A stretch of DNA of 64,000 bases, taken from Polaribacter sp. (lineage in GTDB: Bacteria; Bacteroidota; Bacteroidia; Flavobacteriales; Flavobacteriaceae). Of the stretch, positions 25,460-45,171 are shown piece by piece; position 1 is the first letter of the stretch, and each line of letters opens with the position of its first letter. Position numbers and translations under genes: made by a program. Under the pieces are notes generated by a model. That model ran no database searches. It saw nothing but the letters and a program-made list of their open reading frames with translations, and was not told where the DNA came from. Location of the stretch: positions 1-64,000 of the forward strand of contig JAOLXX010000004.1 of assembly GCA_028343155.1 (NCBI GenBank), in the 5' to 3' direction.

Positions 25460-26896
25460 TCACTTTGACTTGGCTGTTGCTATTAAATTATTTTCAGTTT
25501 TACGTTCATCAAGTTTTGTTCGAATCACAAGAGCACTTTCTTCAGTAACACTATAATTACGCATTACATACATTGCTATAAGTGTTCCTATTATAGGGAT
25601 TCCTGAGAAAGCGAGTCGCAACCCATCAACAGCACCTTCGGGCTGTAGAGTTTGTCCTGAATCAAAACCTACCGAACTCATAATGACACCACTCAATCCA
25701 CCTGCAATAGCAAAACCAAATTTCACCATCAACCAATAGATCGCTCCAAAGGAACCTTCTCTTCTTAGACCTGTATTAAGCTCATCTATATCAATAACAT
25801 CAGCCGTCATAGACATCATTAATAAAAATAGACTTCCGATACCAAATGAAAAAAAAGGAAGTGCAAAAATAAATAGATAAGGCTTGCCTGGAATAAATAA
25901 GAACCAAAGCATCAGATATCCTACAACAGAAATTGCTTGCGAAATCAAAAAGGCCTTCTTTTTTCCTAACACTTTAGACAACCTAGCCACAGTAGGAATT
26001 ACTAAAAAGGTAGTTCCAAGAGCTCCTAAACAACCAAAAAGTGTTGGCCATATACCTGAAGCACCTGCGTCACCATCAAAAAGATGATATACAATAATAA
26101 AGAATGAAAACGAGGCAATTGTCATAAATGCGTTATACACTAAGAAAGTAGCAATACATAGTTTTCTAAATGGTTTTATTTTAAAAGCACTTACAAAACC
26201 TGCACCTATTTCTTTCAGACTATTTCCTATGTTTTTTAGATTGAGAGGAGAATAATCTTCGTTTAAAGTTGATTTACTTTTAATAAAAATACCGGGTACA
26301 ATCGCACAAATAGTACAAATTACACCTACCCAAACAGCAAGTGTCCTCGTTGCAACTTCCGCAGATTCAAACCAAGTGGGATCATACATTATCACCCAAA
26401 ACCAAGGTGCAATAACCCAGGCCCATTGCCCAATCCATTGAGCAGTTGCCATAATATTAGTACGTTCATGAAAATCATTACTCATCTCATAGCCCATCGC
26501 AACGTATGGAACGCTAAAAATGGTAATCCCTAAATAAAATATAAATGACCAAATCATAAAGTAGATGAAATTATAATCAACTCCAGCCCCTTTATAAAGT
26601 TGCCACATAACAATAAATGCAGTACCCGTGATAATCCCCCCAAGAATCACATAAGGGCGCCGTCTTCCCCATCTTGATTTGGTATTATCTGAGATATATC
26701 CCATAATAGGATCCGTAAAACTATCAAAAAGTCTTGGGAAGAAATAAATGACTCCCCACATCCAACCCGGAAAGCCTAAATCTTGAACTAAAACGACCAT
26801 AAAGATACCTAACACAGCAGGAAACATTTGATTCGCAAGCATTCCTATACCGAAGGCAACCTTTTGGCCAAACGGCACTTTTATTTCTTTAGCCAT
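25460..26896 (-). CDS. GPH-family (glycoside-pentoside-hexuronide) sugar transporter
   Basis: A 478-residue inner-membrane MFS protein of the GPH cation symporter family: GIGMLANQMFPAVLG in helix 1, DSFTDPIMGYISDNTKSRWGRRRPY in the first cytoplasmic loop, and SMTADVIDIDE-type loop 10. These carriers import oligosaccharides and glycosides. In this locus it is the likely route for beta-gluco-oligosaccharides into the cytoplasm, where the phosphorylase candidate acts. Downstream of GH30, gap 58 nt. Confidence 0.9.
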   Translation of the reverse strand: MAKEIKVPFGQKVAFGIGMLANQMFPAVLGIFMVVLVQDLGFPGWMWGVIYFFPRLFDSFTDPIMGYISDNTKSRWGRRRPYVILGGIITGTAFIVMWQLYKGAGVDYNFIYFMIWSFIFYLGITIFSVPYVAMGYEMSNDFHERTNIMATAQWIGQWAWVIAPWFWVIMYDPTWFESAEVATRTLAVWVGVICTICAIVPGIFIKSKSTLNEDYSPLNLKNIGNSLKEIGAGFVSAFKIKPFRKLCIATFLVYNAFMTIASFSFFIIVYHLFDGDAGASGIWPTLFGCLGALGTTFLVIPTVARLSKVLGKKKAFLISQAISVVGYLMLWFLFIPGKPYLFIFALPFFSFGIGSLFLLMMSMTADVIDIDELNTGLRREGSFGAIYWLMVKFGFAIAGGLSGVIMSSVGFDSGQTLQPEGAVDGLRLAFSGIPIIGTLIAMYVMRNYSVTEESALVIRTKLDERKTENNLIATAKSK

Positions 26897-26954: not shown

Positions 26955-28436
26955 CTACTGAATAACAATTGTTTGTATTGCTTGTGCATCAATATTTATA
27001 CATGTTTCTTTTCCTCCTATTTGTAATTTAAAATTTTTTTTTGTTTTCCCTTCATTAAAAACCACGACAGCTATGGAACCATCTGGGTTTTCTGCTGCTG
27101 TCACTTGTAATTCTTTAGCTGAGTTTTCTATACCAATTACTTGTGCTTTTGGTCTAATGTATTTACTAAAATGGGCCATTGTATAAAAAAGAGGCGTAAA
27201 ATAAACTTCATCTTTTTCTGGATCTACAATCACTGGAGCGACACACCAATTCTTAAACCAATTTGGTCCTCCTTGTCTGTCTAAAACCATATTCCAATCT
27301 ACCCAACCATCTACCCAATTGTTTAAGCAGCCAATAATATCTCTTGCATATCGGTTTACTGGTGCGTACTTCGGGTGCAAATATTTATCTTTTTCTGGTG
27401 CCCAATCCCAACCCCAATCTGTGGATTCCTTTGCCCAATACCAGGCATCATTTTTCCACTCTGGTACTTGAGAGTCGATACATCCTTCTGTTTCAATTAA
27501 GTATTTGTTTGGCGCTTTTTTATGAGCATATTGCAGAGCTTCTGGAAAAACTTCATAGGTACTTTCATACCAATGAATTGCTGTTCCGTCATAATATTTT
27601 GAGGAAGCTTCATCTTTAAACATCACATCTACCCATTCTTTGATGCCAGCCCTATTCTGGTCATATCCTAAAATAATTTTATCTCCATGACCGTCAGCTT
27701 CTAATTTTGGACCTAGATGATGTTGCACAAAGTCCGTCATTTCCTCAGGTGAATAATGCATACTTTCCCAATTATTACCATTTCCATGCGGTTCGTTTTC
27801 TACCGTAAATCCCCAAATATCAATTCCTTCTTCTTTGTAGGCATCTACATATTTAGAAAAGAATAACGCCCAAGTATCGTAGTATTTTGGCAACAATTTT
27901 CCTCCAACCCATTTTTTATTATCTTTCATCCAAGGAGCAGCTGTCCAAGGAGAAGCAAAGATTTTAAAGCCATCTTTAGAGATTTTCATTGCATCCTTTA
28001 TCATCGGAATTAAATCATCTCTGTCCTCTTTAATAGTGAAATGCTCTAATTCCATATCGTCTTCTACTGGAGAATATGAATATTGACTTAAAGAAAAATC
28101 ACAAGAATTCATATGCGTTCTTGTCAAAGAATAATTTGCACCATCATTTGAAAAATAGGCTTCTAAAATAGTATCCTTGTTTTTCTTACTCAAACGATTT
28201 AGTAAATAAGCTGAAGACTCCGTAAAAGCCCCCCCGAAACCAGTAATGGTTTGAAATTTCTGACTTGGATCCAACTTGATTACAGACGCATTTTCAGCCA
28301 AAGTAAACTCAGAAATAGTGGTTAGTTTATTTCCTGCCTGAGAAGTTTCATAGACAGCAACGTCTAATTTAGAACTCTTTTGGCTACAACTCATAATTAA
28401 AATTAACATCAAAAAATAATAGTTATTTAGTTTCAT
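26955..28436 (-). CDS. GH30-family glycoside hydrolase lipoprotein
   Basis: A 493-residue retaining beta-glycosidase, lipoprotein signal LIMSC (C17). The GH30 fold is marked by GFGGAFTESSAY (66-77), the acid/base E215 in FTVENEP and the probable nucleophile E317 in LIETEGC. GH30 members with this layout include beta-1,6-glucanases and glucosylceramidase-like enzymes; with GH16/GH17 neighbours a role in removing beta-1,6 branches of laminarin is the best guess. Its ATG overlaps the stop of the GH17 gene by 4 nt. Confidence 0.9.
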   Translation of the reverse strand: MKLNNYYFLMLILIMSCSQKSSKLDVAVYETSQAGNKLTTISEFTLAENASVIKLDPSQKFQTITGFGGAFTESSAYLLNRLSKKNKDTILEAYFSNDGANYSLTRTHMNSCDFSLSQYSYSPVEDDMELEHFTIKEDRDDLIPMIKDAMKISKDGFKIFASPWTAAPWMKDNKKWVGGKLLPKYYDTWALFFSKYVDAYKEEGIDIWGFTVENEPHGNGNNWESMHYSPEEMTDFVQHHLGPKLEADGHGDKIILGYDQNRAGIKEWVDVMFKDEASSKYYDGTAIHWYESTYEVFPEALQYAHKKAPNKYLIETEGCIDSQVPEWKNDAWYWAKESTDWGWDWAPEKDKYLHPKYAPVNRYARDIIGCLNNWVDGWVDWNMVLDRQGGPNWFKNWCVAPVIVDPEKDEVYFTPLFYTMAHFSKYIRPKAQVIGIENSAKELQVTAAENPDGSIAVVVFNEGKTKKNFKLQIGGKETCINIDAQAIQTIVIQ

Positions 28437-29713
28437 CTTTTATCGAATGTATTTGGAACTAAAACACCTTTCAATAGGGTTTCTTTATTTCCATTATATG
28501 TTTTTGTTACTGATTTACCATTTCTCGTTAATCCTTTAAAAACTCCTTTATCAACTAGACCCCAAAGTGGAAATTTAGCTTCCCCTTTTAAGGTGAATAA
28601 GCCAAAATGGTTTTCTGATCCTCCTGGGTTTTGAGCATCTTTCCATATTTCATCAAACGCTTCAAAATAAAAACAGGACATCCCTTCATTAAGAGTCCAT
28701 GCACGCGTATATTGATAGTAAAGTCCAGATTTAAGTTCGTCTGTAGCTTTTGAACCCTGATCTCCATAGAGGTCATTTGAAAATGTTGACCAACCTGTTT
28801 CACCAATATGAATCGGTTTGTAAACACCAATACTGTTCATATATCTTTTTACCTCTTCATATTGTAAAGCAGCATACTGTGTAGAACGCTGCATCGCTTT
28901 GTCTATTTTTTCTAAATCAGATAGGTTTTGTTCTTCTGCTAACACTCCCCAAAATTTCGGGTTATAATGCGTGTCATGCATTGGATAGGTATGAACTGAA
29001 AGATAATCTACAGCCTTAATAAGCTTCTCTAAATTTTCAACATGATATACTGGATCTCCTCCACCCCAAGAAGCAAAATTATCTGAACTTGTAATCCAAA
29101 CATCTTTAGACAATGCGCCATTTTTCTTTAAATCTTGTAAATGATTTACCCATTTTAAGATAACATTTGGCTGCACATAATAACTTATTGCCCATTTTAC
29201 CATGGCTTCATTACCAACTGCAATTACCTTTACAATGTCTGGATATTGATTTGCCAACGCTACAGCTCTTAAAATTTCGCCTTCGTTTTGTTGACTTTCA
29301 ATATCATGATTAGGCACTTTATCCGTCCAAGCATTCAAACAGTCTATCCAAGCACCCAACATTACATACATTTCGAAAGTAGGGTCTTCTTTTTTAAGCT
29401 GATAAATTGCTTCTAAAACATTGGATGCATGCGGTAAGTTTGGTTGCACATTATAGGTTCTTAATATTCTAATTCCCATAGCGTGCAACAACCTTAGATC
29501 TTCCTTTAGTTGTAAAATGGTAGGCTGATAATCTTCCCTTGATTTTAATCTATATCCCCCATAAGAGATTGCCAAATAGTTAGGATTCCCTAAAATTTGA
29601 GCTGCTGTTATCACTACTTTTTGATTTTTTTTATTTTCTTTCATTTTATAAATCAAGATCATAACTGTCAACAAAAAAAAACAAATCAAGTAAATTAAAT
29701 TGCGCCTTTCCAT
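28433..29713 (-). CDS. GH17-family beta-1,3-glucanase, membrane-anchored
   Basis: A 426-residue protein with an N-terminal transmembrane anchor (LIYLICFFLLTVMILIY, 6-22). The TIM barrel has NYLAISYGGYR and ILRTYNVQ early, the acid/base E169 in VGNEAMV, and the nucleophile E305 in IGETGWS, the GH17 pattern. It is probably a periplasmic-facing exo- or endo-beta-1,3-glucanase or transglycosylase. The gene is 5 nt after the GH161-like gene and overlaps the GH30 start, so it is part of the same operon. Confidence 0.88.
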   Translation of the reverse strand: MERRNLIYLICFFLLTVMILIYKMKENKKNQKVVITAAQILGNPNYLAISYGGYRLKSREDYQPTILQLKEDLRLLHAMGIRILRTYNVQPNLPHASNVLEAIYQLKKEDPTFEMYVMLGAWIDCLNAWTDKVPNHDIESQQNEGEILRAVALANQYPDIVKVIAVGNEAMVKWAISYYVQPNVILKWVNHLQDLKKNGALSKDVWITSSDNFASWGGGDPVYHVENLEKLIKAVDYLSVHTYPMHDTHYNPKFWGVLAEEQNLSDLEKIDKAMQRSTQYAALQYEEVKRYMNSIGVYKPIHIGETGWSTFSNDLYGDQGSKATDELKSGLYYQYTRAWTLNEGMSCFYFEAFDEIWKDAQNPGGSENHFGLFTLKGEAKFPLWGLVDKGVFKGLTRNGKSVTKTYNGNKETLLKGVLVPNTFDKR

Positions 29714-29718
29714 TAAAA

Positions 29719-32700
29719 CTATTTACTAATGGATACTTCTATATGGCTAATTTCATTGGACCTACTGAATACTTTTGTACTCGTTGCTATATCTAAAGTC
29801 AAAGTATTAAAAACAGTTTTTGATGCATCGTTAAAAACAACTTCAATACCCACTTTTTCTGACAAATTATATACAATTGGTATTTGACAATAAGTAAAAC
29901 AAAGCGAACCTACTTTCAAATTAATTGTTTTTTCTTCTTTGCTTATTGCGGTATACTTAAAAGTTTGAGGAGTGGTAATAAACTCATTTTCTCTTAGTAA
30001 TTTTGGACTAAAGTTAAGTTTACCCTCTTTTACAAAAACACCAAGCTCTCCGATTCTGCTCAACACATCTTCTTTCACCTGGCCTGTCATTCCTGGTTGT
30101 TGTGCTCCTTTCCCTGCTGGTGTATGAGAATATGGATCCGTTGGAAATGCTCCATATAATTGTGGCGATTTATGTACTCCAACACCTGCTTGAATTTCAT
30201 AATAATGGTCAAAAAGTCGACCAATCAATGCTGGGTCTTCATTATTTTTAACGGCTATTAAACAGTTTTCTTGAACAGCTAATAATAGTTTTGAAAGCAT
30301 GTGCCAATAAATAGAACCTAAACCTTCATAACCAAAGAAAGTACCTGAACGTCCTGTAAATGCTTTGTGATTAAAAACTTCTTCAAAAATATCTAACAGC
30401 AATTGTGCTTCTTTCCCTAACAAATCTTCATAAGCTTCTGGTAGTTCTGCAAAAGCTTCTTTTAATCTATTTGCATTATTAAAATTGGCATTGAAATGAT
30501 ATTTCCCAGTAACATCTTGATTAATGATTTGAGTATTTCCATCACCAACAAGCTTTGATAATAGTTTAGAATTTTCTACGGAAATTTTAGAAATCACATT
30601 TTTCTCGTCAAAACGTGCCAATTCTTTATTGGGATATAAAATATAACTGTACTGATCTTCTCTGAACAATGCACTTGCCTTCATTCCGTCTAAAACAGCT
30701 AACACTTCTTTTGACGATAAGTATTCTGCACTTAAAACAGCTACTTGCCCTTCTAACATTTCAGGCAAATAGGAAACAGAAACTTCTGTATCATTCTCTA
30801 TCGTCATTAAATTATAAGAATGGTATAAATTATCTGAACGTTTATTTGCTTTGATTGTATGTTCTAGATATTGTTTTGTAATGGTAAAAAAGGCTAACAA
30901 CGCTGTTTTTGTAACCTTACTTCGATCACTAGAAAATCCATTTTCATAAATCTGAGTTCTATAGACACTTGCTGCCTCACCTAAACCATCTAAAACTGTT
31001 TTTCTTTCTGAATCTGATACACTCCCAGATAGAATCTTTTTATTTTGGATGAAAGTGGCAACTACTTCATTAAAAAATATTGCCAATTCTGCAGAAATTT
31101 CTACTTCTTCTGTTGCCGATTTTAAAACTACTTTTTCAAAGAATTTTATAAAACGGTTTAAATAGTTAAGTGTAACCATAGAAACACCGTTCCCAACGAG
31201 CGCATTATTCGCATCATTCCATTCCGGACGCTGCGTATTCATCCAAATACCACCTTCAGGAATAAAGTTGGATACTTTAGCGAGCACAGTTGCCAATAAT
31301 TTTTCTATTAAGTTTACTTTATATATAAAGAAATTTTCATCTCTTAACAAAGCGCCATCCGCTCCTAATTCTTCTTTCTTTTGATGAATTTTCGCATCTA
31401 AATCATGGTCAAATTCAATCGTATCTTTAGGGTTTTCAAGTATGCTTTTATAATCTTTTATTTTGTAAGGCACATTTGCATAGACAAAAATGTCTTCAGA
31501 AAACCTTTTTTCCAATTGATTTGGATAATGATTTTCTATAAATTCTAAGAATTTTAATAAGTAAATTATTTGATGATCTCCCCAATAGCCAATGTATGAC
31601 CAAGGATCATTTTCTTCAATAATTTCCCAATCAAAACCATCTTTTGTAACTCGGTAAGGATTGTAACCATCAAAAGTTGTTGCATTCAAAAACTTATGAA
31701 TCATGCTTTCAATAAAAGCAGGATAGGAATGTGCTAATGTTTCCCAATTCTGGAAAATATCACGCCAGTTTCCTTCATAATCTAAAATTTTAGAACCATC
31801 TATTTCATTTTTTGTATTGATAGAAAACTTGTTCCAAGGTCTACTTGGATCTCCATGTCTTCTACTAAATTTTAATGGTAAATATTCAAAACAAAGTCTT
31901 TTAAAGTTTTGATCCTCATCTTTCTCTGCAATTTCAAGGATTGTATTTAGGTTAAAGATGTCTGGCAAACCATTTAACAATGCCTCTTTTTTCTTGATAA
32001 CTTTTTTATTCGCCTTTCCGATGTATTTTATAAAATCTTCTTTTTCAATCTTATAATCATCATCAAAAGTTCCACCTCTCATTAAATTGAAAAGCGTGTT
32101 TGCAAAGTGTCTGGTACTAATTAAGGAATCGTTTGTAACCTGAACACCATCAGCAGCTCCTGTTAAGGCAATTAAATTTTTTGTTCCTAATTCAATATCC
32201 TCTTGAATTTCTTTCGATAAATTTTCATTATCCGTAATTGCTTTCGAAATTCTTTGAATAGCTCCTATTGTTTGATTGACATTCGCAATAAAATGCCACT
32301 CTTTGGTTTCGTTTGCTGACAAATCTAAATCAGCACTAATAAAATAAGCACCTTTTTCTGCCTTTACATCAATTTCTTGATGAAGCGCTTTTCCTCTTCT
32401 AAAATTATCTAATTGTAATGATGATAGTAAATAGGTTGGATTTTCAATACCTAAAGACCAAACGATGTTTGCCTTTAAAGCTTCACTTGGCTCTGCTTTA
32501 TCTACAATAATAGCGCTTAGGGCATAAATACCTAAACCCGACTCTGTTTGTAATTCACTCTTTTTGTAAGCGTCTACTAAATTACTTCTCGAATTTTGTA
32601 AATCGGTTTCAACGTCTGAAGGGATAATATTTTGTAAACCATCTAAAAATGTAACTTGTACATTTTCTGAAGAAGTGTTAATTAAGGTTGATTTTTTTAC

Positions 32701-33177
32701 GAAGCCAAAAACATCAGAGGAACTCCATTGATATCTAAATGTGATACCTAGGTCTTCATTAATTTCTTCAAAAATAACTTTGTTACCAAAACTGTTCTTG
32801 TATAAGTTTTGTTTCACTTGATACAAACCAATTTGTCTTTGAGAAAAAGGTTCCCATAAGTAAGTATTTCCATTTTTTAAAACTTGAAAAATAGATTTAC
32901 TTCCTGTAACATCCGCAGCTTCTGTAATTTTATCATCTGTATAATAAGGAAATAATGAATACTCACTGTTTTTTCTACCTGCAGTAAGACCTCCATTACT
33001 TGAAATAAACATCCAATGATTTGAGTCTGAAACAATACTCATAAAAAAAGGCCTCATTTCATTACTATTGGCAATCTTATAATAGGTTTCATTTTCAAAA
33101 TGAATCATTTCACCTTTTACCAATTGCGTTTGAAAATCTGCTTTATTTTTTCCTAAAAAAATAGTCTTTTTTGTCAT
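29719..33177 (-). CDS. GH161-like beta-1,3-glucan phosphorylase candidate
   Basis: A very large 1152-residue protein without signal peptide, hence cytoplasmic. It starts with a beta-sandwich-like half (NGGLTAGRKNSEYSLFPYYTDDK near 61-82), and a catalytic-barrel-like half contains IWMNTQRPEWNDANNALVG. The aspartate there (D655) corresponds in position to the general acid of GH94-type phosphorylases (DWND). The size and motif fit GH161, described as beta-1,3-glucan phosphorylases. It would release glucose-1-phosphate from imported oligosaccharides. Family assignment is from memory and needs a profile search. Confidence 0.62.
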   Translation of the reverse strand: MTKKTIFLGKNKADFQTQLVKGEMIHFENETYYKIANSNEMRPFFMSIVSDSNHWMFISSNGGLTAGRKNSEYSLFPYYTDDKITEAADVTGSKSIFQVLKNGNTYLWEPFSQRQIGLYQVKQNLYKNSFGNKVIFEEINEDLGITFRYQWSSSDVFGFVKKSTLINTSSENVQVTFLDGLQNIIPSDVETDLQNSRSNLVDAYKKSELQTESGLGIYALSAIIVDKAEPSEALKANIVWSLGIENPTYLLSSLQLDNFRRGKALHQEIDVKAEKGAYFISADLDLSANETKEWHFIANVNQTIGAIQRISKAITDNENLSKEIQEDIELGTKNLIALTGAADGVQVTNDSLISTRHFANTLFNLMRGGTFDDDYKIEKEDFIKYIGKANKKVIKKKEALLNGLPDIFNLNTILEIAEKDEDQNFKRLCFEYLPLKFSRRHGDPSRPWNKFSINTKNEIDGSKILDYEGNWRDIFQNWETLAHSYPAFIESMIHKFLNATTFDGYNPYRVTKDGFDWEIIEENDPWSYIGYWGDHQIIYLLKFLEFIENHYPNQLEKRFSEDIFVYANVPYKIKDYKSILENPKDTIEFDHDLDAKIHQKKEELGADGALLRDENFFIYKVNLIEKLLATVLAKVSNFIPEGGIWMNTQRPEWNDANNALVGNGVSMVTLNYLNRFIKFFEKVVLKSATEEVEISAELAIFFNEVVATFIQNKKILSGSVSDSERKTVLDGLGEAASVYRTQIYENGFSSDRSKVTKTALLAFFTITKQYLEHTIKANKRSDNLYHSYNLMTIENDTEVSVSYLPEMLEGQVAVLSAEYLSSKEVLAVLDGMKASALFREDQYSYILYPNKELARFDEKNVISKISVENSKLLSKLVGDGNTQIINQDVTGKYHFNANFNNANRLKEAFAELPEAYEDLLGKEAQLLLDIFEEVFNHKAFTGRSGTFFGYEGLGSIYWHMLSKLLLAVQENCLIAVKNNEDPALIGRLFDHYYEIQAGVGVHKSPQLYGAFPTDPYSHTPAGKGAQQPGMTGQVKEDVLSRIGELGVFVKEGKLNFSPKLLRENEFITTPQTFKYTAISKEEKTINLKVGSLCFTYCQIPIVYNLSEKVGIEVVFNDASKTVFNTLTLDIATSTKVFSRSNEISHIEVSISK

Positions 33178-33461: not shown

Positions 33462-35177
33462 TTATTGAGCTTTTATTACTACATTATCAATATTAACTGA
33501 AGCATTACTGTTTACCAATTCCGCTAAAAATGAAACTCCTCCTGCTACTTGATTTGCGTTTCCTGGAGTTGTAAAAGTATAGGATTTAGACTCCCAAGAT
33601 GTTGAAGAAATACTACTTGTATCGATAGTAAGATCATGCTTAGTTGCAGGTACGTCTCCACCATTTTCTCCTTCAGAAAAAACAAATGCCTTGAAAACAC
33701 CACCTTCTCCAAAAGCTCCTGATGCTTTGATATCAAAAGTAACGACATAGGTCGTATTTGGTTGAATGATACCAACACCAAGTCTTTCTTGTTTTAATGC
33801 TGGATTCTTTCCACTTGCAGATTGAATTTGAGCAGATCTAGAGCCACCGTTATCAATCGTTTCTGAGATTGATACTGTACCTCCATTCCCAATTAATTGC
33901 CAATCACAATCACACGCCTCAAAATCACCATTAAATAATAATTCACCAGTAGGAGCGTCAGGACACGTAGTGGTATCTGCACATCCGTCTCCACCGCCCA
34001 CGGTATTAGAAGAACCACCACCAGTTCCACCACCGCCACCGCCGGTTCCGAGATTTAATTTTAAATCATCAAAATAATAGGTGTTTCCATTTTTGGTTTC
34101 TAAATCAAAAAAGAATACTACTTTATCATATTTATCACTATCTGAAGCGTTAAATGAAATTGTTAACTCTTCCCATTCATCTGTTTTTGTGGTTACTCCA
34201 GAAGCTACTTGTTTAAAAGCTCCTGAGTTTGCTTTATCTTCTAATTTAAGTGTTACTTTATAACCAGACTGTGGTGAGTAAACTTTGATCGTGAAATTTG
34301 ATCCGTCCGTAAAAATTAATTTATTTGCAAAATCAAATTGCAAATTATCCCAAGCAGCTGCATTATGGTTGATAACCTTCGCTACTTTGCATGAATTATT
34401 TCCAGCAGAAACTGCAGGGTTATCAGCATACTCATACGTTACATTATCTTGAAAGAATTTAAAATTTTCTGAATTCTTTACTGCTATAGTGCCCGGATCT
34501 GTTTGAAAAGTTAAATGGAAATTCACAGCCGTTAATGTTTGTGCTACGTCTGCAGTACAAAGTCCAACAACAACAGTATTTACGTTTACAGTTCTTGTTA
34601 CTTCAACCGCTTCATTGTCCGCTGCATCAGAGACATTGTATGTAATTACATACGTGCCTGCAGTTGTTGTATCTACGATATCTCCTCCTACCACAATGTT
34701 TTCAGAAATATCACCATCTACCGCGTCAGTAGCAGTTGCTCCTTGATCTGTAAAGCTCTCATTGACATCAATCTCAATAGTTGCCAGTCCCGTTAGGGTA
34801 ATTACTGGTATTGTCGTATCAGGACCAACCTGAATAGGACCAACAACAATAATATCTTCAAAATAAGAGACTGCTCCTGCAGCGTTCATTGCTTTTAATA
34901 TAACAGTATACGTACCATTAATATACGTTTTAATTGGATTAATATCTGATGAAATTAATTCCGATACTAAAGGGGTTTCATCTCCAAAATCCCAAGAATA
35001 GGTAGTTGCATTCTCAGAAATATTAATAAATTCTACTGTACCTGTATTTTCGTTTAAAGTATACGTAAAGCCTGCAGTAATTTTAGGCAATTCAACAACA
35101 TCCTCTGAACAACCTGCGTATATTATTGCCATCAAAAAGAAAACAATAAGCTTACTATTTTTTAATACTAATTTCAT
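33462..35177 (-). CDS. PKD/carbohydrate-binding surface lipoprotein
   Basis: A 571-residue lipoprotein (AGC lipobox, C22). Domains in order are a PKD module (about 32-112, TTYSWDFGD), a DUF5011-like Ig fold (115-197, TDQGATATDAVDGDIS), a jelly-roll-like module (205-378), a glycine/serine linker (about 380-400) and a C-terminal CBM4/9-like module (410-571, LFNGDFEACDCDWQL, NTTYVVTFDIKA). No catalytic residues are apparent, so it is best read as a surface glycan-binding protein for the beta-glucan substrate. It is the last gene of the upstream operon. Confidence 0.82.
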   Translation of the reverse strand: MKLVLKNSKLIVFFLMAIIYAGCSEDVVELPKITAGFTYTLNENTGTVEFINISENATTYSWDFGDETPLVSELISSDINPIKTYINGTYTVILKAMNAAGAVSYFEDIIVVGPIQVGPDTTIPVITLTGLATIEIDVNESFTDQGATATDAVDGDISENIVVGGDIVDTTTAGTYVITYNVSDAADNEAVEVTRTVNVNTVVVGLCTADVAQTLTAVNFHLTFQTDPGTIAVKNSENFKFFQDNVTYEYADNPAVSAGNNSCKVAKVINHNAAAWDNLQFDFANKLIFTDGSNFTIKVYSPQSGYKVTLKLEDKANSGAFKQVASGVTTKTDEWEELTISFNASDSDKYDKVVFFFDLETKNGNTYYFDDLKLNLGTGGGGGGTGGGSSNTVGGGDGCADTTTCPDAPTGELLFNGDFEACDCDWQLIGNGGTVSISETIDNGGSRSAQIQSASGKNPALKQERLGVGIIQPNTTYVVTFDIKASGAFGEGGVFKAFVFSEGENGGDVPATKHDLTIDTSSISSTSWESKSYTFTTPGNANQVAGGVSFLAELVNSNASVNIDNVVIKAQ

Positions 35178-35204: not shown

Positions 35205-36062
35205 CTATTTGTTATATACTCTTACGTAATCGATTAACATTGTTTGTGGAAAAACAGTTTCCTCATTTGGTGCGCCTATAAAATTTCCACCTACTGCTAA
35301 GTTGATAATAATGTAGAAAGGTTGATCAAATACCCAAGTCCCTTTTTCTTCTACTTGTGCGCGTGTGATTTGATTGTATAAAACATCATCCACATAATAA
35401 TTAATATATTCTGGAGTCCATTCTATTCCAAAAACATGGAAACCTGTATCAAAACGATCGTTTTCTAATGCATACGTTTTAGTAATCGCATTACCTGCAG
35501 CATAACCAGGGCCATGAACACTTCCATGAACCACTGTTGGCTCTTGTCCTCGGTATTCCATAATATCTATTTCACCGCAATTTGGCCACACTTCTGTATC
35601 TGCTGTTCCATCACCACAATTAGCGCCTAACAACCAGAAAGCAGGCCACATTCCTTGACCTGTTGGCAATTGTATACGTGCTTCAAAACGACCATATGCT
35701 TGTTCTTTTAAACCTTTGGTTAAAATTTTACTAGAGGTATAATCAAAACCACTATAATCTTCTTTAAGAGCTTTAATTATTAGTATACCGTTTTGTACAG
35801 AAACATTTTCTGTACGCTTTGTATAAAATTGTTCTTCATTATTACCCCATCCATTGGTACCATTTCCAATATCAAAAGTCCAAATATCACTATCTATAAA
35901 ATCATCTGTATCAAATTCATCAGATAACACAATATTTTTAAATTCTGCAACGGTTTGTGTTTCGTCTAGATTACAACTAAAGGCTATAAGAAGAACTAGT
36001 GCGCCAAACGTTTTCAACAAAGTGGTTGTTATACGCATGCTATTTTTATTATTTTTATCCAT
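35205..36062 (-). CDS. GH16 beta-glucanase (laminarinase), lipoprotein
   Basis: A 285-residue endo-beta-glucanase with lipobox LIAFSC (C30). The GH16 active site GEIDIMEYRG gives nucleophile E164 and acid/base E169, the pattern of laminarinase-type GH16 enzymes; WPAFWLLG precedes it. It likely cleaves beta-1,3-glucan at the cell surface. The ATG at 36062 gives a long n-region; an ATG at 36038 would also leave the signal peptide intact. It is 26 nt after the next binding-protein gene. Confidence 0.92.
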   Translation of the reverse strand: MDKNNKNSMRITTTLLKTFGALVLLIAFSCNLDETQTVAEFKNIVLSDEFDTDDFIDSDIWTFDIGNGTNGWGNNEEQFYTKRTENVSVQNGILIIKALKEDYSGFDYTSSKILTKGLKEQAYGRFEARIQLPTGQGMWPAFWLLGANCGDGTADTEVWPNCGEIDIMEYRGQEPTVVHGSVHGPGYAAGNAITKTYALENDRFDTGFHVFGIEWTPEYINYYVDDVLYNQITRAQVEEKGTWVFDQPFYIIINLAVGGNFIGAPNEETVFPQTMLIDYVRVYNK

Positions 36063-36088: not shown

Positions 36089-37567
36089 TTATTCTTTATA
36101 GAAATATAAATTATCGATATGAAGATCAGTTACATTAGAAGATTTTATTCTTTCTATAATAATAAGATTGACTCCTGTCTTATCCAAACCAGTTTCTGCT
36201 GTAGGCCTAATAGGTATTTTGATAGTTTTCCATACACCACCTTCAAAGGTTGCATTACTTTCAGTATCATTAATATCTCCTGTTCGGGGATCCCATGCGT
36301 ATGTTTGACCACCAATTCGCTGCTGTTGGAAAGTTGTCTCAGTAGCACTTTCATTCTTTAAAGTAATCAGCATATCAATATCAGTTGGCAAGACCTCAGG
36401 CATTAAAATATCTATACTAAGATGGGTCATCTCCGAAATATCTAAAGGTGTTGTTAATTGAGTACCTACAAAATTAAAGTTCGTATAGTTAAGCACGTTT
36501 TGCCCATCTATAACAGTTTCGCCCCCTAAAGTTGTTTGATAAGGTGCCCAGAATCCATTGTAGTAATTTACTGCTTCATCTGTATACGCATCACTAAATA
36601 TTGAAATCACATCACTTGCTGCTAATGATGGTGTAGGTGCAACAGGAAAGCCTCCTGCAACATTAACTGTTAAAGAACCAGCTACTGAAACCCCAGCAAT
36701 AGAAGCAGTTATTTTTGCTGACCCTGAACCAACAAGACTTACAATTCCTGACTCATTTACTCTTGCAACTTCAATATCAGAAGAGGTAAAAGAAAAATAA
36801 GATGGCGCGGCAATTACCGTTTGATTTATACCGGAAGCCAAATTAAATGTTTGTCTCAAACCATAATCAGCCATACTAAATTGATCTCCTAAAAATTTAG
36901 TTTCTACTTTGTCTTCCTTATTTGCCATAGCAGGTTGGGGCTGACCAAGGGTTCCTAATTTTTCAAATTTTAATTCATCCATCCAAAAGGTATAGCCCAT
37001 TTCAGGAAAAACGCCAATTCCTCCAGCAGAAAAAATAAACATTCCTTTTTCTTGTATAAGTTTAGAAGCATCTGGAATTGGTATCGTATATTTTCTCCAA
37101 TCAGTAGAAAGTTTTATATTTTCTAAACCGACAGCATATTTGTCATCAATAAAATCAGTTCCAAAACCAACCAATGCAATTGTAGCTGTTGTAGATCCTT
37201 TTGCCCAAAATGTTAACACATCATAACCCGTTAAGTTTCTTCCAGTACCACGATCTACAAAAATACCACCAATGTATCCACCGTTAGCGTCGTCTCCAGC
37301 GGGTACATCTATACGGATAGCACTCGCACCTTGATAGGTAATACTCTCGTCGGTTCCAAAACCTTCGGTATTTGCTCCTCCGGCGGGATCAAAAGAAACA
37401 AAAAATTGATCGGTAAGACCTACTGGAGTATCCGTAAAGATATCACCAGTTGTTCCATAAGTAGCAAATTCAACTTTGTCTGAAAGCTCTCTTTCGCAAC
37501 TAGTAATACTGAGCGCCAACAGGAATAAAAAGGTAGCTTTTATGTATTTATATTTTGTTGTTTTCAT
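36089..37567 (-). CDS. Ig-like/glycan-binding lipoprotein
   Basis: A 492-residue lipoprotein from the ATG at 37567 (signal LLALSITSC, C24); longer starts precede the signal and overlap the upstream gene, so they are rejected. The first domain (30-210) is a galactose-binding-like jelly roll (LTGYDVLTFWAKG), the second (about 235-305) a BIG2-like Ig fold (VNESGIVSLVGSGSAKITAS), the third another jelly roll (320-492, MTHLSIDILMP). No catalytic motif. Probably a surface glycan-binding protein partnering GH16 and the barrel fusion. Confidence 0.8.
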   Translation of the reverse strand: MKTTKYKYIKATFLFLLALSITSCERELSDKVEFATYGTTGDIFTDTPVGLTDQFFVSFDPAGGANTEGFGTDESITYQGASAIRIDVPAGDDANGGYIGGIFVDRGTGRNLTGYDVLTFWAKGSTTATIALVGFGTDFIDDKYAVGLENIKLSTDWRKYTIPIPDASKLIQEKGMFIFSAGGIGVFPEMGYTFWMDELKFEKLGTLGQPQPAMANKEDKVETKFLGDQFSMADYGLRQTFNLASGINQTVIAAPSYFSFTSSDIEVARVNESGIVSLVGSGSAKITASIAGVSVAGSLTVNVAGGFPVAPTPSLAASDVISIFSDAYTDEAVNYYNGFWAPYQTTLGGETVIDGQNVLNYTNFNFVGTQLTTPLDISEMTHLSIDILMPEVLPTDIDMLITLKNESATETTFQQQRIGGQTYAWDPRTGDINDTESNATFEGGVWKTIKIPIRPTAETGLDKTGVNLIIIERIKSSNVTDLHIDNLYFYKE

Positions 37568-37583
37568 CTTATCTTTTTTTATA

Positions 37584-40500
37584 TTATTTACCAATATTGA
37601 TATGAATGTAAGTTCTAATTTCCCATTCTGAACCATTCGGAAATCCTACAGGACTAATCGTTGGTGCGGTCGCAAATTCTATCGCGTTATTCGGGCTAAA
37701 TCTTGGAGAGTTTTCATCAAGAGATCTCCACGTTCCGCGAATACCCACTTTAGTGCTTGGTAACACAAACCATCCTGGCTTTCCTAGAGTAGTTGATACA
37801 TCCAACATTAATTGTGCTGGATATGTCAAGTTAAAATCTCTGTGATAATCAAAAGGACCCCAATCGTTAAATTTTGCTTGTGCGGTTATTTTTAGTTTGT
37901 TGATGATCATTCGTACATCTCCACCAAAACGTTTTATCAACCTGGCATTGTCACCATTTGCTTGTCCATTTCCATAGAAGAAGTTCCCTATAAACCCAAA
38001 TTCTGGACTCACTTTAGAAACTACTCTAGAGCTAACTTCCCATAAATCTTCTGCTGGAGCCGCATTTGGAAATGCAAAAAATTGACGATTTGCTAAAAAT
38101 CCGATGTGTGCATCTTGGGTTGTAGGTAAATGACGATAAACAAAACCTAAATTCATAGCAAACTTCGCATCTTCTGCTCTATCATTGTCCCATTCATACA
38201 TCCATGTTCCTGGGGTTGGATCATAAGTAAACAACCATTCTACTCCCATCGTCTCTCTATTTCCTCTCACTGCAAACGGGTCGTCAATCACATTTCTTAA
38301 TCTTCCAGCACCTGTTACATCGTTTGGCATTGCTGCAATCAATGGTTTTTGATACAAGAAATTAGGTGCGATTTGTAAATTTCCAGTAGTAAAAGTAGCA
38401 CCCGTTAAAACGTTTACTTGATTTCCACTTCCGTTGTCTTTTAATTTCCAACCTGTAAAAGTCTGTGTTTGATCAGAACCGCCACTCGCGACTAAGCCCA
38501 TATACCCTCCTTGAGCATACCAATTAAAAAGTCCATTTTGGTATGTAACTTTCGCTTTACCACCCCAATTGTCTTTTGAGTTAATTTTGTCATTATAGAT
38601 AATATAATTCCCAGAGGTTCCTCTTGCTTCTTGGAAAGAACTCCCGTTTAATGGACTACCTCCCCAGATAGCGCCAAGATCAATTTTAAATTTTCCAAAG
38701 TTTTTTTCTAATGCAAGCGCAAATCTTTCCGTTGGAAATGCAGGAATAATACCACTACGTAATTGATTCGCATCTAAAACTCTACGACCTGTTAAAGGGT
38801 CAACATTGATGTCTGTTTCTAAATCTCTGTGGTAAATTCCTGTTACGCCCCAATCACCAATTTTTCTACTGTATTTGAGTAAGACGGTTGGATTTGCTCC
38901 CCACCAAAGTTGTGGTCCAAAAGCTGCTTTTAAGCCTTTTAAAGCGCCTTTACCATCTACTTCTATTCCTAAAATTTCACCACCATAAATATCTAAATTT
39001 GGCCCGTAATTTGCTTCTCTATATATATTGAAGAAATCTCCTTCGTATGCCCAATGATAATGACCTGTTCTATAGAAACCTCTCAAATCAAAATCTTTGG
39101 CAGCCCATTCAAATTCTGCATTGTATACATTTAATCGATTTACATCGTTTAAGGTAACATTCCCATTGTCTGAATTTAAAGTTACTGGTCTTCCTCTATT
39201 TTCGTAAAAGATTTCATCGATCGGATTTGCAGCAACATTCCCTAAAATATTGAAGTTTACATTCGCTCTCATATTTGGAGCTGGATTTCCTTCTACACCA
39301 ATATAATAAGACTCCATGTGATCAAATCCTAATTGATTTGGAAAAGTACCTCCATTTGGGTCTGCAGTATCAGGAGTCGTCAATAAACTACCTCCTGTGT
39401 TAAATGTTGAAAACTCTGCACGTAAATTACTTAATTTAATTTTTTCGCTACCACCTAAGGCTGCTTTGTCTCCTCGAGCTTTTAAAACACCTTCCATTAA
39501 ACTAATCTTAGAAAAATGATCAGCAACTGCCTCGGCAGTAATTCCTTTTCCTAAAGGATTGATGCGGTGTGCTTCTTTTAAAGAATAATAAGCTGCTCTT
39601 GGATATAAAGTATACAATCCTTTTGAGTTAATTGGTCCTTTTGCACAAATACCAAACCACTCTTCATTCATGTTATTGTTACTCCCTTCTAGATCAAGAT
39701 AGTACCCTCCATTAGACCAAGAGGCATTGTTATCATGAACCTCTAAGTTTTTTGTCTGGCCATATTTCCACCATCCGTCTGAGAATTGAAATGTAAAACC
39801 TCCAATTGCATTTTCTGATTTCCCTAAACCTGCCGCATTCTGATAGATCTCTTTCCAGTTTTCGACCATAAAAAATGATTGCATTTTTTGGTCTTCTTGG
39901 TTGCTAACAGCATTGAATGCATCTGCTCCAAACTCGGTAAATAAGATGGGCATGTTTAATTCTTTTTTTACTCTCTCAAAAGCATCTGTAAATGATTTTC
40001 CACGATACATATTTGTTCCATAGATATCAACATCTTTACATTCTTCAGCAACGATTTCTGAAAATAATAAATCTCCATTACAAATCGCAACTGGTAAGTT
40101 ACCATCGATAGATTTAATTTTGAGAGCCGCCTCGTTCATTAACTTATACATCGGTCTCCCACGGGTTTCACCAATAAATTTTTTCTTTTCTTCTTCTTCT
40201 GGAAAATCTTCTGTTTCTGATCCTGCCCAAAAAAGTCCGTAATTATTTTCGTTTCCTAATAAGTACAATAATAACCCTGGTGTATTCTTATACTCGTTTA
40301 CCAATGTTGTTATCTCAGAAAGTAATAAGTTTTTTGTTTTCGCCTCACTGTAGTCTGTTACAGGTGTCCAAACACCATTTATAGTCAAACCATATCTACC
40401 GAAAGAATGGTTTAACATGGTATAGATACCGTATGTTTCATAAACATAAGTAATCCATTTTGGTTGCATTCCTGTATAAACACGAATCGTATTGACCCCC

Positions 40501-40751
40501 ATGTTCTTTAAAAGACCCATTTCGGCATCTAAAGCTGCTTTAATCAATTCATCTGATTGCTTCCACAGACTATAAGCATAATTTGTTCCAATTGGAACAT
40601 AATCCCAATTCATTCCATTGACCATAAAAGGTTTCCCTTTTACTTCCAACCTAATTCCTTGAGCATCGCTTACTACAGAGACTTTATCTGCTTGAGCAAA
40701 AAGATGCATTGTAAATAATAGAAAGGCTAGCCTTAAATAACTTTTTTTCAT
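37584..40751 (-). CDS. TIM-barrel glycosidase fused to outer-membrane beta-barrel
   Basis: A 1055-residue exported protein (signal MKKSYLRLAFLLFTMHLFAQ). Residues 25-400 form a GH2/GH5-clan type TIM barrel: NGMNWDYVP, GVNTIRVYTGMQPKW, acid/base E168 in LLGNENN and nucleophile E273 in LFTEFGAD. From about 430 to the end the sequence is a series of alternating amphipathic strands with aromatic girdles (YNAEFEWAAKDFDLRGFYRTG, WYAQGGYMGLV, FAMNLGFVYRHLP), as in a porin-like outer-membrane barrel, ending YIHINIGK. Such a fusion would tether a glycosidase or transglycosidase to its own pore. It heads the upstream operon. Exact GH family uncertain. Confidence 0.75.
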   Translation of the reverse strand: MKKSYLRLAFLLFTMHLFAQADKVSVVSDAQGIRLEVKGKPFMVNGMNWDYVPIGTNYAYSLWKQSDELIKAALDAEMGLLKNMGVNTIRVYTGMQPKWITYVYETYGIYTMLNHSFGRYGLTINGVWTPVTDYSEAKTKNLLLSEITTLVNEYKNTPGLLLYLLGNENNYGLFWAGSETEDFPEEEEKKKFIGETRGRPMYKLMNEAALKIKSIDGNLPVAICNGDLLFSEIVAEECKDVDIYGTNMYRGKSFTDAFERVKKELNMPILFTEFGADAFNAVSNQEDQKMQSFFMVENWKEIYQNAAGLGKSENAIGGFTFQFSDGWWKYGQTKNLEVHDNNASWSNGGYYLDLEGSNNNMNEEWFGICAKGPINSKGLYTLYPRAAYYSLKEAHRINPLGKGITAEAVADHFSKISLMEGVLKARGDKAALGGSEKIKLSNLRAEFSTFNTGGSLLTTPDTADPNGGTFPNQLGFDHMESYYIGVEGNPAPNMRANVNFNILGNVAANPIDEIFYENRGRPVTLNSDNGNVTLNDVNRLNVYNAEFEWAAKDFDLRGFYRTGHYHWAYEGDFFNIYREANYGPNLDIYGGEILGIEVDGKGALKGLKAAFGPQLWWGANPTVLLKYSRKIGDWGVTGIYHRDLETDINVDPLTGRRVLDANQLRSGIIPAFPTERFALALEKNFGKFKIDLGAIWGGSPLNGSSFQEARGTSGNYIIYNDKINSKDNWGGKAKVTYQNGLFNWYAQGGYMGLVASGGSDQTQTFTGWKLKDNGSGNQVNVLTGATFTTGNLQIAPNFLYQKPLIAAMPNDVTGAGRLRNVIDDPFAVRGNRETMGVEWLFTYDPTPGTWMYEWDNDRAEDAKFAMNLGFVYRHLPTTQDAHIGFLANRQFFAFPNAAPAEDLWEVSSRVVSKVSPEFGFIGNFFYGNGQANGDNARLIKRFGGDVRMIINKLKITAQAKFNDWGPFDYHRDFNLTYPAQLMLDVSTTLGKPGWFVLPSTKVGIRGTWRSLDENSPRFSPNNAIEFATAPTISPVGFPNGSEWEIRTYIHINIGK

Positions 40752-41739: not shown

Positions 41740-42270
41740 TTATTGTTTTACCAATTTATATATCCAAAAACCAGGTCCAAAATTGATGTCTAATGTTATT
41801 GTACCAACTGCTTCATCAAATTCTGTTACATCATAAGTAATTGAATCTGGAGCATCTCCTGGTGCTGCTAATTCTCCTGCATTATTAACTTTAGCCAATC
41901 CAAGAAAAGCACCTTTACCATCAATCTTTATTATTCCTGCAGCTTCATCATAAGCATAAGTTGCAGTTGCTGTTCCATCATGAGGGAATACTGGTGTTCC
42001 ACATGCATCTGGATCCGTTCCTTGCCATGCTTCTAAAAATGTTTCTGTTCCTAATACATTTTTGAAAGATCTATCTGCATTGAATACATACTCATCATCA
42101 AAAAAGCAAGCTCTTGTTGTTAAACCTCCAACTGCATTAGAGAACCAAGAAATATCTCCTAATGCTGGACCAACTCCAAAAGCTCCTGCTTCTGGAGCTA
42201 TCCTCCAAATACCTTCTAGAGGACTTCCTCCTCCTACTGGTGGAGCTACAACAACTGAATAAAAGAACAT
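41740..42270 (-). pseudogene. N-terminally truncated glycan-binding protein
   Basis: A 176-residue reading frame that begins in the last strand of what looks like a PKD domain (YSVVVAPPVGGGSP) and continues into a C-terminal module (WRIAPEAGAFGVGP, ACFFDDEYVF, DGTATATYAYDEA, GFWIYKLVKQ) found at the end of flavobacterial PKD/SusE-type surface proteins, as I recall. No signal peptide or lipobox is present. Its promoter-proximal motif remains 54 nt upstream, suggesting an internal deletion joined the promoter to the gene's end. It could still be expressed but would stay in the cytoplasm. Confidence 0.6.
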
Positions 42271-42375: not shown

Positions 42376-45171
42376 CTATAATTCTAAAATATAATTTGTC
42401 AAATTTGAATCATGAGGTAATTCCATTTTTTTTCTCAATCGATATCTTTTAACCTCTACACTTCTTGAAGAGATATTAAGCAATGGAGCAATTTCTTTCG
42501 AAGACAAATTCAATCGTAAATAAGCACAAAGTCTTAAATCATTAGGGGTTAAACCTGGGTGCTTATCTTTCACTTTCTTCAAAAAGTTTTTATCTGCATT
42601 GTTAAATGCTTCTTGAAACATTTTCCAATCATCTGTGTTGTTTAGATTTTGATCAATAATCTTCACGACCTTAGAAACACTTTTAGCATCACCATTTATC
42701 AATTCTGTTTTTATGGTACTTAAGAAATCATTTTTTTTAATGATGTTCATTGTCGAACTTGCTAACTCCCTGTTTTTACTTTCAATATCACTTCTCAGCT
42801 TATCGTTATTTAGTTTAATAATTTGCTGAGAACTCTCTAATTCTTTTAATTCTGAAACCTGTTTTGCTTTCTCTAACAAGTCTTCTCGTTGTTTTTTATA
42901 GTATCGTTTTGAAGCAATATGAACTAAATAGAAGGCTAATAACGACAACAACACATAGATCGTTATTATTGTGTCAGACAAAAACCATGGTCTTTCTATT
43001 ACAAAACTAAAAATAGCTTCATTGCTCATTTTTTCTCCATCTACAAGAGCTCTTACTTTAAAAGTATAACTACCATAAGAGATGTTTTCAAATAAAACCG
43101 AAGTAGAAGGTGAAGGGATACTCCATTGCTTACTTTGTCCTACTAAAAGTTGTTGGTATTTTACACTTGTAATTTTATTATAATTAGGAACACCATAAAA
43201 GAATTCAAAATTATTTTCTTTATACAAAAATTCTTTTTTTGAAGAAAGTTCCACATTTACTCTTGATTCATCTATGACGAAATTATTAATTTTATTGATT
43301 TCGATCTTAAAATCTTTCAGAATATTCAGTTTATTTAAATCCACTACAACATATCCATTAGAAGTACCGATTAAGTATTTTTCATTTTCTAAATGACTGA
43401 TATTTTCATTACCAAAAGTTGCCTTAGGAACAGTTGCAGAAAGCGGGACACTCCTAACAATTGGTTGACTACTTAAGTTACCTGGTATTAAATACTTTAT
43501 ACTTTCCTTAGAAAAAGACCACAGTTTATTATTCGACTTATTATGAGCAAGTTTTGCTGAAATAAAATCATCCTCAGAAATTAACTGGCTATAAATAGCA
43601 TCTCTTTTGAAAATATCCTCCTTTATATCATATAAAAAAACACCCTTTTTACTTGAATATACAATCTTATCTTGATAGGAAATCAAACAAGAATGAAGTC
43701 CTTTTCTAAGCGACTCTTCTTTTTTAATATGCGTTACTTTATTAAATCCCTCATCTAACGTAAGCTTAAAAACCCCCTTATATTCATGATTTACAATAAA
43801 TTTATGGGAATCATACATCACTAAATACTTGCTAGAAGTATTAAAACCTTCAACTTTATTTCTTAATTCCCAACGATTATTCTTTTTTTCAAGGACATAT
43901 AACCCATCGTAACACCCTTGAATAATAATATTCTCAGAGATTTGTTTAAACATCCAAGTACCTTGTTTATTAAAAATTAAATTTGAGAGCCCTTGTTTTA
44001 TCAGGAAAGTACCAGAAGTATGACCACAAAACAATTTGCCATCAATAACTTCTAAATTCCAAACTTGTCCTTGGGTATTATCAACAAGCCGAAAAGGTTT
44101 TTTTAAATCTTTTTTCCTGAAAAAAAGCCCTTGGTTTGTGCCTAAATATAAATTACCCTCATAAACAATAGATGCATAAACAGTACCAATAAAATTACTT
44201 ATATTATTATAAATCTTAAGAGGAGAAGTATTATTCACACAATTAATTCCATTATCTAAACCTAACCAAATATTATTTTCAGCATCTTCAAAAACAGCAA
44301 GTACTGTATTGTTGTTTAAGCCCGATTTTTGTGTTATTTCATAATTGACACTACCATTTTCATTTAGATAGATAAAACCATCTGAAATAGTTCCCAGTGC
44401 ATAGTCTTTATTCTTTAATTGTTTTACACTATAAACTGTAACCTTATTAAGAATTGCATCAGAAGGAGTTTTCCATTTGACAATTTTCCCTTTATCTAGA
44501 TAGAAAAAACCTAATTTTTGAGTTAAAAAAAGTAATTTATTCTCTTTTTTAAAAATTTCGACAATAATGTTTTCTTTTAATATTTGATGATCTGAAATTA
44601 ATTTAGGAACACCGTTTTCTATTTTAAAAACACCTTTATTACTTTCTTGAAAATAAACTACACCATTTACTTTTGATAATTTAGTCAGACTAAATTCTGA
44701 ATTGATTATTTTTACTTCTTTCGTTCCTATATTATAAAGATAAACTCTTTCTAAAGACTTGAAAATCAACCAACCATCAAGTTCTAAGATTGTCCATATT
44801 TGCTCATCTTCAATCATTTGGATATTTTTTTTTTCAACAATAGAAGTATATTCTAGTAGTCCAAAATCATTTTTTTTCCAAAAACCAAAATCCATGTAAA
44901 AACCCGTGTAAACTTTATCCTTTATTACCTTTACAGATCTCATTATGGTTTTATTGGGCGTAGGATACAATTGCCAAATGGAACCGTTAAACTCCAACAA
45001 ACCTTTGTTATTTGCTATATAAATAAACTTGTTCTCTGATTGAGATATATCCCAATTTTGATTTTCTGCTTTATACTCTTTCGTAGTATAAGTATTTATA
45101 GGTGGTAGTTCTTGTGCAATGAAAACACAAGAAAATGAAATAAAAATTAATAGCAAAAAAACTCTAATCAT
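42376..45171 (-). CDS. Propeller-sensor transcription regulator with LuxR-type HTH
   Basis: A 931-residue one-component membrane regulator. After a signal peptide (MIRVFLLLIFISFSCVFIAQ) come two-component-regulator propeller repeats (residues about 30-640, e.g. ENNIWLGLDNGINCV), a Y_Y_Y-like domain (660-735, YGSYTFKVRAL), one transmembrane helix (about 742-762), a coiled coil (770-815) and a C-terminal HTH (LTPNDLRLCAYLRLNLSSKEIA ... SSRSVEVKRYRLRKK, about 870-925). There is no histidine kinase, so the external signal would be passed straight to the DNA-binding domain. Its place beside the glucan operon makes it the probable regulator. Confidence 0.85.
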   Translation of the reverse strand: MIRVFLLLIFISFSCVFIAQELPPINTYTTKEYKAENQNWDISQSENKFIYIANNKGLLEFNGSIWQLYPTPNKTIMRSVKVIKDKVYTGFYMDFGFWKKNDFGLLEYTSIVEKKNIQMIEDEQIWTILELDGWLIFKSLERVYLYNIGTKEVKIINSEFSLTKLSKVNGVVYFQESNKGVFKIENGVPKLISDHQILKENIIVEIFKKENKLLFLTQKLGFFYLDKGKIVKWKTPSDAILNKVTVYSVKQLKNKDYALGTISDGFIYLNENGSVNYEITQKSGLNNNTVLAVFEDAENNIWLGLDNGINCVNNTSPLKIYNNISNFIGTVYASIVYEGNLYLGTNQGLFFRKKDLKKPFRLVDNTQGQVWNLEVIDGKLFCGHTSGTFLIKQGLSNLIFNKQGTWMFKQISENIIIQGCYDGLYVLEKKNNRWELRNKVEGFNTSSKYLVMYDSHKFIVNHEYKGVFKLTLDEGFNKVTHIKKEESLRKGLHSCLISYQDKIVYSSKKGVFLYDIKEDIFKRDAIYSQLISEDDFISAKLAHNKSNNKLWSFSKESIKYLIPGNLSSQPIVRSVPLSATVPKATFGNENISHLENEKYLIGTSNGYVVVDLNKLNILKDFKIEINKINNFVIDESRVNVELSSKKEFLYKENNFEFFYGVPNYNKITSVKYQQLLVGQSKQWSIPSPSTSVLFENISYGSYTFKVRALVDGEKMSNEAIFSFVIERPWFLSDTIITIYVLLSLLAFYLVHIASKRYYKKQREDLLEKAKQVSELKELESSQQIIKLNNDKLRSDIESKNRELASSTMNIIKKNDFLSTIKTELINGDAKSVSKVVKIIDQNLNNTDDWKMFQEAFNNADKNFLKKVKDKHPGLTPNDLRLCAYLRLNLSSKEIAPLLNISSRSVEVKRYRLRKKMELPHDSNLTNYILEL

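Follow-up and report, generated by a model that had tools for sequence, protein, structure and literature searches.

A glycoside hydrolase fused to a predicted outer-membrane beta-barrel in a laminarin-type locus of Polaribacter

A single open reading frame in the DNA analyzed here, a 64,000-nucleotide stretch of a Polaribacter sp. contig (JAOLXX010000004.1, positions 1 to 64,000; hereafter the window), encodes a signal peptide, a glycoside hydrolase (GH), and a strand-rich C-terminal half modeled as an outer-membrane beta-barrel (Table 1). Our preferred reading, to which we give a probability of about 0.58, is that this protein forms an outer-membrane pore through which oligosaccharides of laminarin reach an enzyme attached to the inner opening. 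A surface GH16 would cut laminarin into fragments, the barrel and a neighboring surface lipoprotein would let these through the outer membrane, and a beta-glucanase-like enzyme at the periplasmic mouth would meet them as they emerge; GH17 and GH30 would carry on the periplasmic degradation, with the symporter and GH149 at work in the cytoplasm. The barrel-lipoprotein pair would substitute for, or act alongside, SusC/SusD. Laminarin is the probable substrate, judging from the GH149 equivalog, the GH16, GH17, and GH30 neighbors, and the laminarin-enzyme folds among the structural matches, and we infer both transport through the barrel and the cell compartments in which the other enzymes of the locus would act.

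The original prediction on this DNA had placed a signal peptide, a TIM barrel, and a strand-rich half in one polypeptide at 37584-40751. One 1055-aa frame at these coordinates holds all three; it lies on the minus strand, which had been left unstated. The enzyme, the barrel, their fusion, and the catalytic pair of that prediction are all supported by the results below.

Table 1. Features of the fusion gene and its locus in the window
Feature	Position	Strand	Basis or remark
Fusion gene, 1055 aa	37584..40751	-	Single ORF
Signal peptide, residues 1-19, likely signal peptidase I	40695..40751	-	Ends LFA-Q, by eye
Glycoside hydrolase clan-A TIM barrel, residues ~20-415	39507..40694	-	
E168 in GNEN, presumed acid/base	40248..40250	-	Invariant; aligns with GNE of GH158
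E273 in FTEFG, presumed nucleophile	39933..39935	-	Invariant; aligns with TEWG/TEFG of GH158
Predicted outer-membrane beta-barrel, residues 438-1055	37587..39440	-	AlphaFold2, turn/loop alternation, Foldseek, alternation z
Partner lipoprotein, surface-glycan-binding-like	36089..37567	-	Start corrected from listed 37636
GH16 lipoprotein	35205..36062	-	PF00722
PKD/CBM4 lipoprotein	33462..35177	-	PF00801, PF02018
GH149 beta-1,3-glucan phosphorylase	29719..33177	-	NF058639 equivalog, 1809 bits, cut-off 1150
GH17-like enzyme	28433..29713	-	PF00332, E 1.6e-4, 21.8 bits, below cut-off 28.2
GH30 enzyme	26955..28436	-	PF02055
GPH/MFS sugar symporter	25460..26896	-	PF13347; unfused
Relic of SusC/SusD-linked binding lipoprotein, last repeat only	41740..42270	-	Similarity to L003, L009
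Reg_prop/Y_Y_Y/LuxR-type regulator	42376..45171	-	PF07494, PF07495, PF00196

The locus and the enzyme domain

In order of transcription, the locus runs regulator, relic, fusion, lipoprotein, GH16, PKD/CBM4, GH149, GH17, GH30, and symporter; since the lipoprotein more likely starts at 37567, its overlap with the fusion gene is only apparent. By gene content (GH149, GH16, GH17, GH30, MFS), it appears to be of the known laminarin type, variant 1 / B, a set that asks for GH30_1, the GH30 of the window being placed at family level only. Variants of these laminarin loci are described in passages of PMC6794258, and a Polaribacter laminarin locus with the order GH149-GH0-GH17-GH16_3-GH30_1 is given in PMC10108472. 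As the enzymes of the window pair one to one with those of the latter, in the portion of the paper available, the fusion gene is likely its unclassified "GH0." A Muricauda locus has a GH2 beta-glycosidase within the same gene set (PMC13188888, in part), so that the fusion gene is probably recorded as "GH0" in one place and "GH2" in another, an equivalence drawn from gene content and order rather than accessions. In the available parts of PMC10108472 and PMC13188888, the "GH0"/"GH2" gene is treated as an enzyme only and a barrel is not mentioned, and excerpts of open-licence PMC text yielded no description of enzyme-barrel fusions or SusC-less uptake.

The pair E168 and E273, predicted earlier as catalytic, is borne out by its invariance in 94/94 aligned fusions and in 19/19 sequences aligned over the enzyme domain, with the window in both sets. 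The family of the enzyme is less sharply drawn. The GH2 catalytic profile PF02836 gives a marginal match (22.1 bits against a cut-off of 21), and neither Pfam nor AlphaFold2 places the GH2 sugar-binding and Ig-like domains ahead of the TIM barrel, the enzyme beginning near residue 20. The GH158 profile matches at E 1e-7, a value built from short stretches that are each nonsignificant by themselves. In the VIA-align fold comparison, whose rows span residues 15-417 only (i.e., the enzyme part), GH158, GH157, and GH2 are tied in Z, and the best matches include laminarin enzymes. The GH157 and GH158 beta-1,3-glucanases differ from the fusion in that they share ~20% identity with its enzyme and have no barrel.

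The C-terminal half, its partner lipoprotein, and their distribution

The C-terminal ~620 residues had no match in Pfam, NCBIfam, PHROG, or PDB sequences. An AlphaFold2 model from an alignment of 94 sequences (mean pLDDT 81.4, pTM 0.69) contains ~26 strands of at least 6 residues between residues 438 and 1053; because of the pTM, the pose of the enzyme relative to the barrel is unsure. The gaps between the 26 modeled strands have medians of 2 residues on the N-terminal side and 26 on the opposite side, with strands hand-picked from DSSP (the short strands 523-527 and 530-534 were omitted) and a side assignment that depends on that choice. Outer-membrane barrels have their short turns on the periplasmic side, and tight turns on one side with long loops on the other are the pattern of such a barrel. 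The strand-alternation z of this half is 4.2-4.8, compared with 5.0 for SusC, 2.2 for the partner lipoprotein, 0.1 for GH16, -0.2 for SusD, -0.6 for GH149, and -0.9 for GH30. Foldseek matched barrels including BtuB3G3 (8p97, E 4e-9), PfeA (5m9b, 2e-8), MOMP (5ldt, 4e-8), and Cir (9nn6, 1e-7), in a list made up mostly of glycosidases, given without aligned ranges and with low TM-scores for the barrels (0.18-0.24 of the query). A barrel had previously been proposed from the strand pattern; the modeled strands, the gap asymmetry, and the alternation z all uphold it, and with its signal peptide, amphipathic hairpins, and turn/loop asymmetry the protein has the predicted hallmarks of an outer-membrane beta-barrel. 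A soluble beta-sandwich fits poorly, the alternation being SusC-like and unlike that of soluble GH16, and a carbohydrate-binding module was rejected on the same alternation and on the lack of any Pfam match.

The barrel is accompanied by a lipoprotein, whose gene directly follows that of the fusion in 94 of the 95 loci with enough sequence. In the tree set, it adjoins 42/44 fusions, the other two being a locus with swapped order (L156) and one with a split gene (L233), and 0/21 barrel-less enzymes. Barrel and lipoprotein were lost together in 5/5 independent pairs (sign test, p 0.06, the best attainable with 5 pairs; L163, L150, and L229, where the script found no next gene, were left out), so the two go together and can be separated from the enzyme. 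A lipobox is present in 108/115 members of the lipoprotein family, and 96% of those have at least two acids after the cysteine; with a mean net charge of -0.79 at +2..+6, the family is less acidic there than SusD (-2.24).

A search for the same fusion in other Bacteroidota, proposed earlier as a check, found it widely. The barrel query matched 35/395 genomes evenly sampled from the phylum: 33 with open frames of at least 1028 aa (one of them, in G204, cut by a contig end), 1 with a broken fusion, and 1 with a relic behind the enzyme. An open frame in 33/395 genomes excludes an assembly accident. The enzyme query matched 56 of the same 395 genomes, 43 strongly (>450 bits), and these 43 divide into 33 fused, 1 broken, and 9 without the barrel. 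No enzyme-less barrel was found in the 395-genome sample, and 120 of 776 listed matches showed only proteins resembling cut-off fusions. A search of genome contigs found 438 loci, of which the best 80 were kept; in another search, 8000 candidates were scored and 5560 of them matched at E 0.001, and the sources of the fusions listed also name Ignavibacteriota, Calditrichota, Zixibacteria, and Marinimicrobia. Within the genus of the window, 36/58 genomes matched, with 15 intact fusions (window included), 1 split, 15 barrel-less, and 5 weak.

On the best enzyme-domain tree, barrel state switches 8 times, and 6 of the switches are forced by well-supported branches (quick search, SH-aLRT support only, L078 omitted). 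Given these switches, repeated loss of the barrel is the simplest reading, the tree itself giving no direction. Several loci show altered genes: a decayed barrel relic follows a stop immediately after a barrel-less enzyme (L143:3399-3620), fusion genes are split or shortened in L233 (G429) and L151 (G235), and in L229:8541-10074 and L230:4516-6273 the enzyme is joined to another C-terminal domain, CBM-like by eye, of ~150-200 aa in L230 and truncated at the end of the contig in L229.

SusC/SusD and the case for a mere anchor

The locus had originally been described as having no SusC/SusD. This is true of the window's contig, which holds none of the genome's 19 TIGR04056 and 5 PF07980 matches, and looks like a local loss, since L002, L003, and some related loci have the pair. 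L002 and L003 (84% identical) carry susC-susD where the window has the relic, the order in L003 being regulator, susC, susD, lipoprotein, further ORF, and fusion. What the window keeps is the last 176 codons of the lipoprotein that follows susD (62% identity in L003, 68% in L009), and in L001 (98% identical) the homologous frame extends upstream as far as the contig does. Relative to L003, the window has apparently lost susC-susD; a misassembly is possible, the genome being 81% complete in 48 contigs. Relocation within the assembled genome was rejected, as its 6 SusC loci (those above cut-off among the 19 matches) are at most 33% identical to those of L002/L003 over their length.

Of the 76 loci in which the fusion is flanked by 7 kb or more on each side, 14 have susC-susD in the fusion's operon and 20 have susC anywhere in the stretch. 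A barrel that strictly replaces SusC/SusD was therefore rejected; with both in one operon in 14/76, the fusion is no simple substitute. Within the genus, susC and susD are present in 14/14 barrel-less loci whose upstream sequence reaches 8.5 kb or more (L230, where there is none, is not among them) and in 8/13 intact fused loci whose upstream sequence is 9.8 kb or longer, window excluded (L246 is too short upstream to be counted), and are absent from the other 5, from the split L233, and from the window. Every adequately sequenced locus of the genus sample therefore has the barrel, SusC/SusD, or both. The pattern breaks down outside the genus, where 4 of the 6 barrel-less loci with enough sequence show no SusC/SusD in the stretch covered (L144, L145, L148, and L150), and L142 and L147 have it. 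Across 64 tree rows, SusC/SusD is present with 13 fused and 16 barrel-less enzymes and absent with 31 and 4, respectively (Fisher, 3e-4, kinship ignored); states were hand-listed, with L049 scored as having the pair (in the stretch, outside the operon run), L068 as lacking it (susC only), and L246, L143, L146, and L230 dropped as unknown. Over independent pairs, the two changed the same way in 0 and the opposite way in a mean of 2.3 of 6, which is not significant.

These patterns bear on the idea that the barrel is a mere anchor that keeps the enzyme at the outer membrane while sugars use SusC/SusD or general porins, which we regard as rather unlikely. The frequent co-occurrence of fusion and SusC/SusD and the barrel-less loci without a local pair fit an anchor, as does the distribution of lipoboxes, which by our own finder rule occur in 13/21 barrel-less enzymes and just 2/113 fusions (both reading C...AQ), as if one anchor had been swapped for another. 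However, the finder showed no lipobox in the remaining 8/21, so an anchor is not always retained, and loss together with a surface-type lipoprotein would not be expected of an anchor. Also against an anchor is the absence of SusD_RagB (PF07980) from 5/30 fused genomes (G255, G066, G051, G144, and G204, all 99-100% complete), a count that covers 30 of the 33 fused genomes and a profile that does not span all SusD-like families. A ~26-strand barrel is also a costly anchor. The gene associations in relatives suggest that pore and lipoprotein may be able to do the work of a SusC/SusD importer. As modeled, an open barrel of ~26 strands would be leaky unless closed by loops, the enzyme, or the lipoprotein.

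Orientation of the enzyme and comparison with known systems

In the AlphaFold2 model, the tight turns of the barrel lie on the side where the enzyme is attached and the N-terminus is found. An acidic signal directs lipoproteins to the surface (PMC5080379, in part). At least two acids after the cysteine are found in 97% of SusD (n=38), 89% of GH16 (n=114), and 100% of PKD/CBM (n=52) lipoproteins, and in 30% of GH30 (n=57) and 21% of GH17 (n=75); of the 13 lipobox-bearing barrel-less relatives of the fusion's enzyme, 4 have at least two acids at +2..+7 and 9 do not. Tight-turn attachment and the mostly missing export signal in these relatives together point to a periplasmic enzyme, on the inner side of the pore. 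The original prediction had the tethered enzyme cleaving or transglycosylating glucan at the cell surface. Such an arrangement, autotransporter-like or inverted, now looks improbable: apart from the attachment side and the 9/13 relatives without the signal, the barrel has ~26 modeled strands and no Pfam autotransporter match. Classical (type V) autotransporters have a C-terminal 12-strand translocator barrel, and one of these was rejected on both counts. In favor of a surface enzyme, the locus encodes a GH16 and further lipoproteins that appear surface-exposed, and autotransporters share the order of passenger then barrel. The proposed order of events is probably inverted, with passage first and cleavage after. 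That the protein instead builds or remodels glucan for export or storage is very improbable: weak, sub-cut-off GH72 glucanosyltransferase similarity in two barrel-less relatives and a transglycosylase GH17 in the Muricauda locus (PMC13188888, in part) favor it, but the locus looks catabolic (GH149, GH30, GH16, symporter, Y_Y_Y/LuxR regulator), and laminarin induces the laminarin loci of Formosa, which the Muricauda cluster largely matches (excerpts of PMC13188888 and PMC6246565).

Laminarin is among the major stores of carbon in the sea, and its entry into Bacteroidota is generally attributed to SusC/SusD. The fusion resembles that system in pairing an outer-membrane barrel with an adjoining surface-type lipoprotein in a glycan locus, at times in the same operon, but its enzyme lies N-terminal to the barrel, its partner lipoprotein has no SusD match, and the fusion protein has no match to the plug (PF07715), the SusC profile TIGR04056, or CarbopepD. 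It might, more tentatively, represent a separate, non-SusC class of glycan importer, common in marine laminarin eaters and found in SusD-bearing and SusD-less hosts, in which a plugless pore, an inner-mouth enzyme, and a dedicated lipoprotein link the import of beta-1,3-glucan oligosaccharides with cleavage. If the fusion imports laminarin, a gene logged as an unclassified or GH2 hydrolase would be an uptake system, loci recorded without SusC/SusD may be complete, and enzyme-transporter fusions would occur at both membranes of one pathway. The question of import is directly testable through contrasts within the genus, where loci differ in having the barrel and SusC/SusD.

SusC/SusD-less laminarin loci as such are already known from print, the variant-1 locus of the NS4 clade W_MB115 (PMC10108472) and the GH17/GH16_3/GH149 loci of Colwellia (PMC10811738) both being given without susCD in the parts available. 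A transporter and a laminarin enzyme also form one polypeptide in a laminarin locus of Formosa, an MFS-GH17 fusion whose authors, in the available portion of PMC6246565, knew of no such transporter-enzyme fusion from other bacteria; that protein is a 12-helix transporter of the inner membrane, whereas the fusion in the window is predicted to be a beta-barrel of the outer membrane. At L143:8617-10968, a symporter ORF of 783 aa matches GH17 as well and so resembles the Formosa fusion.
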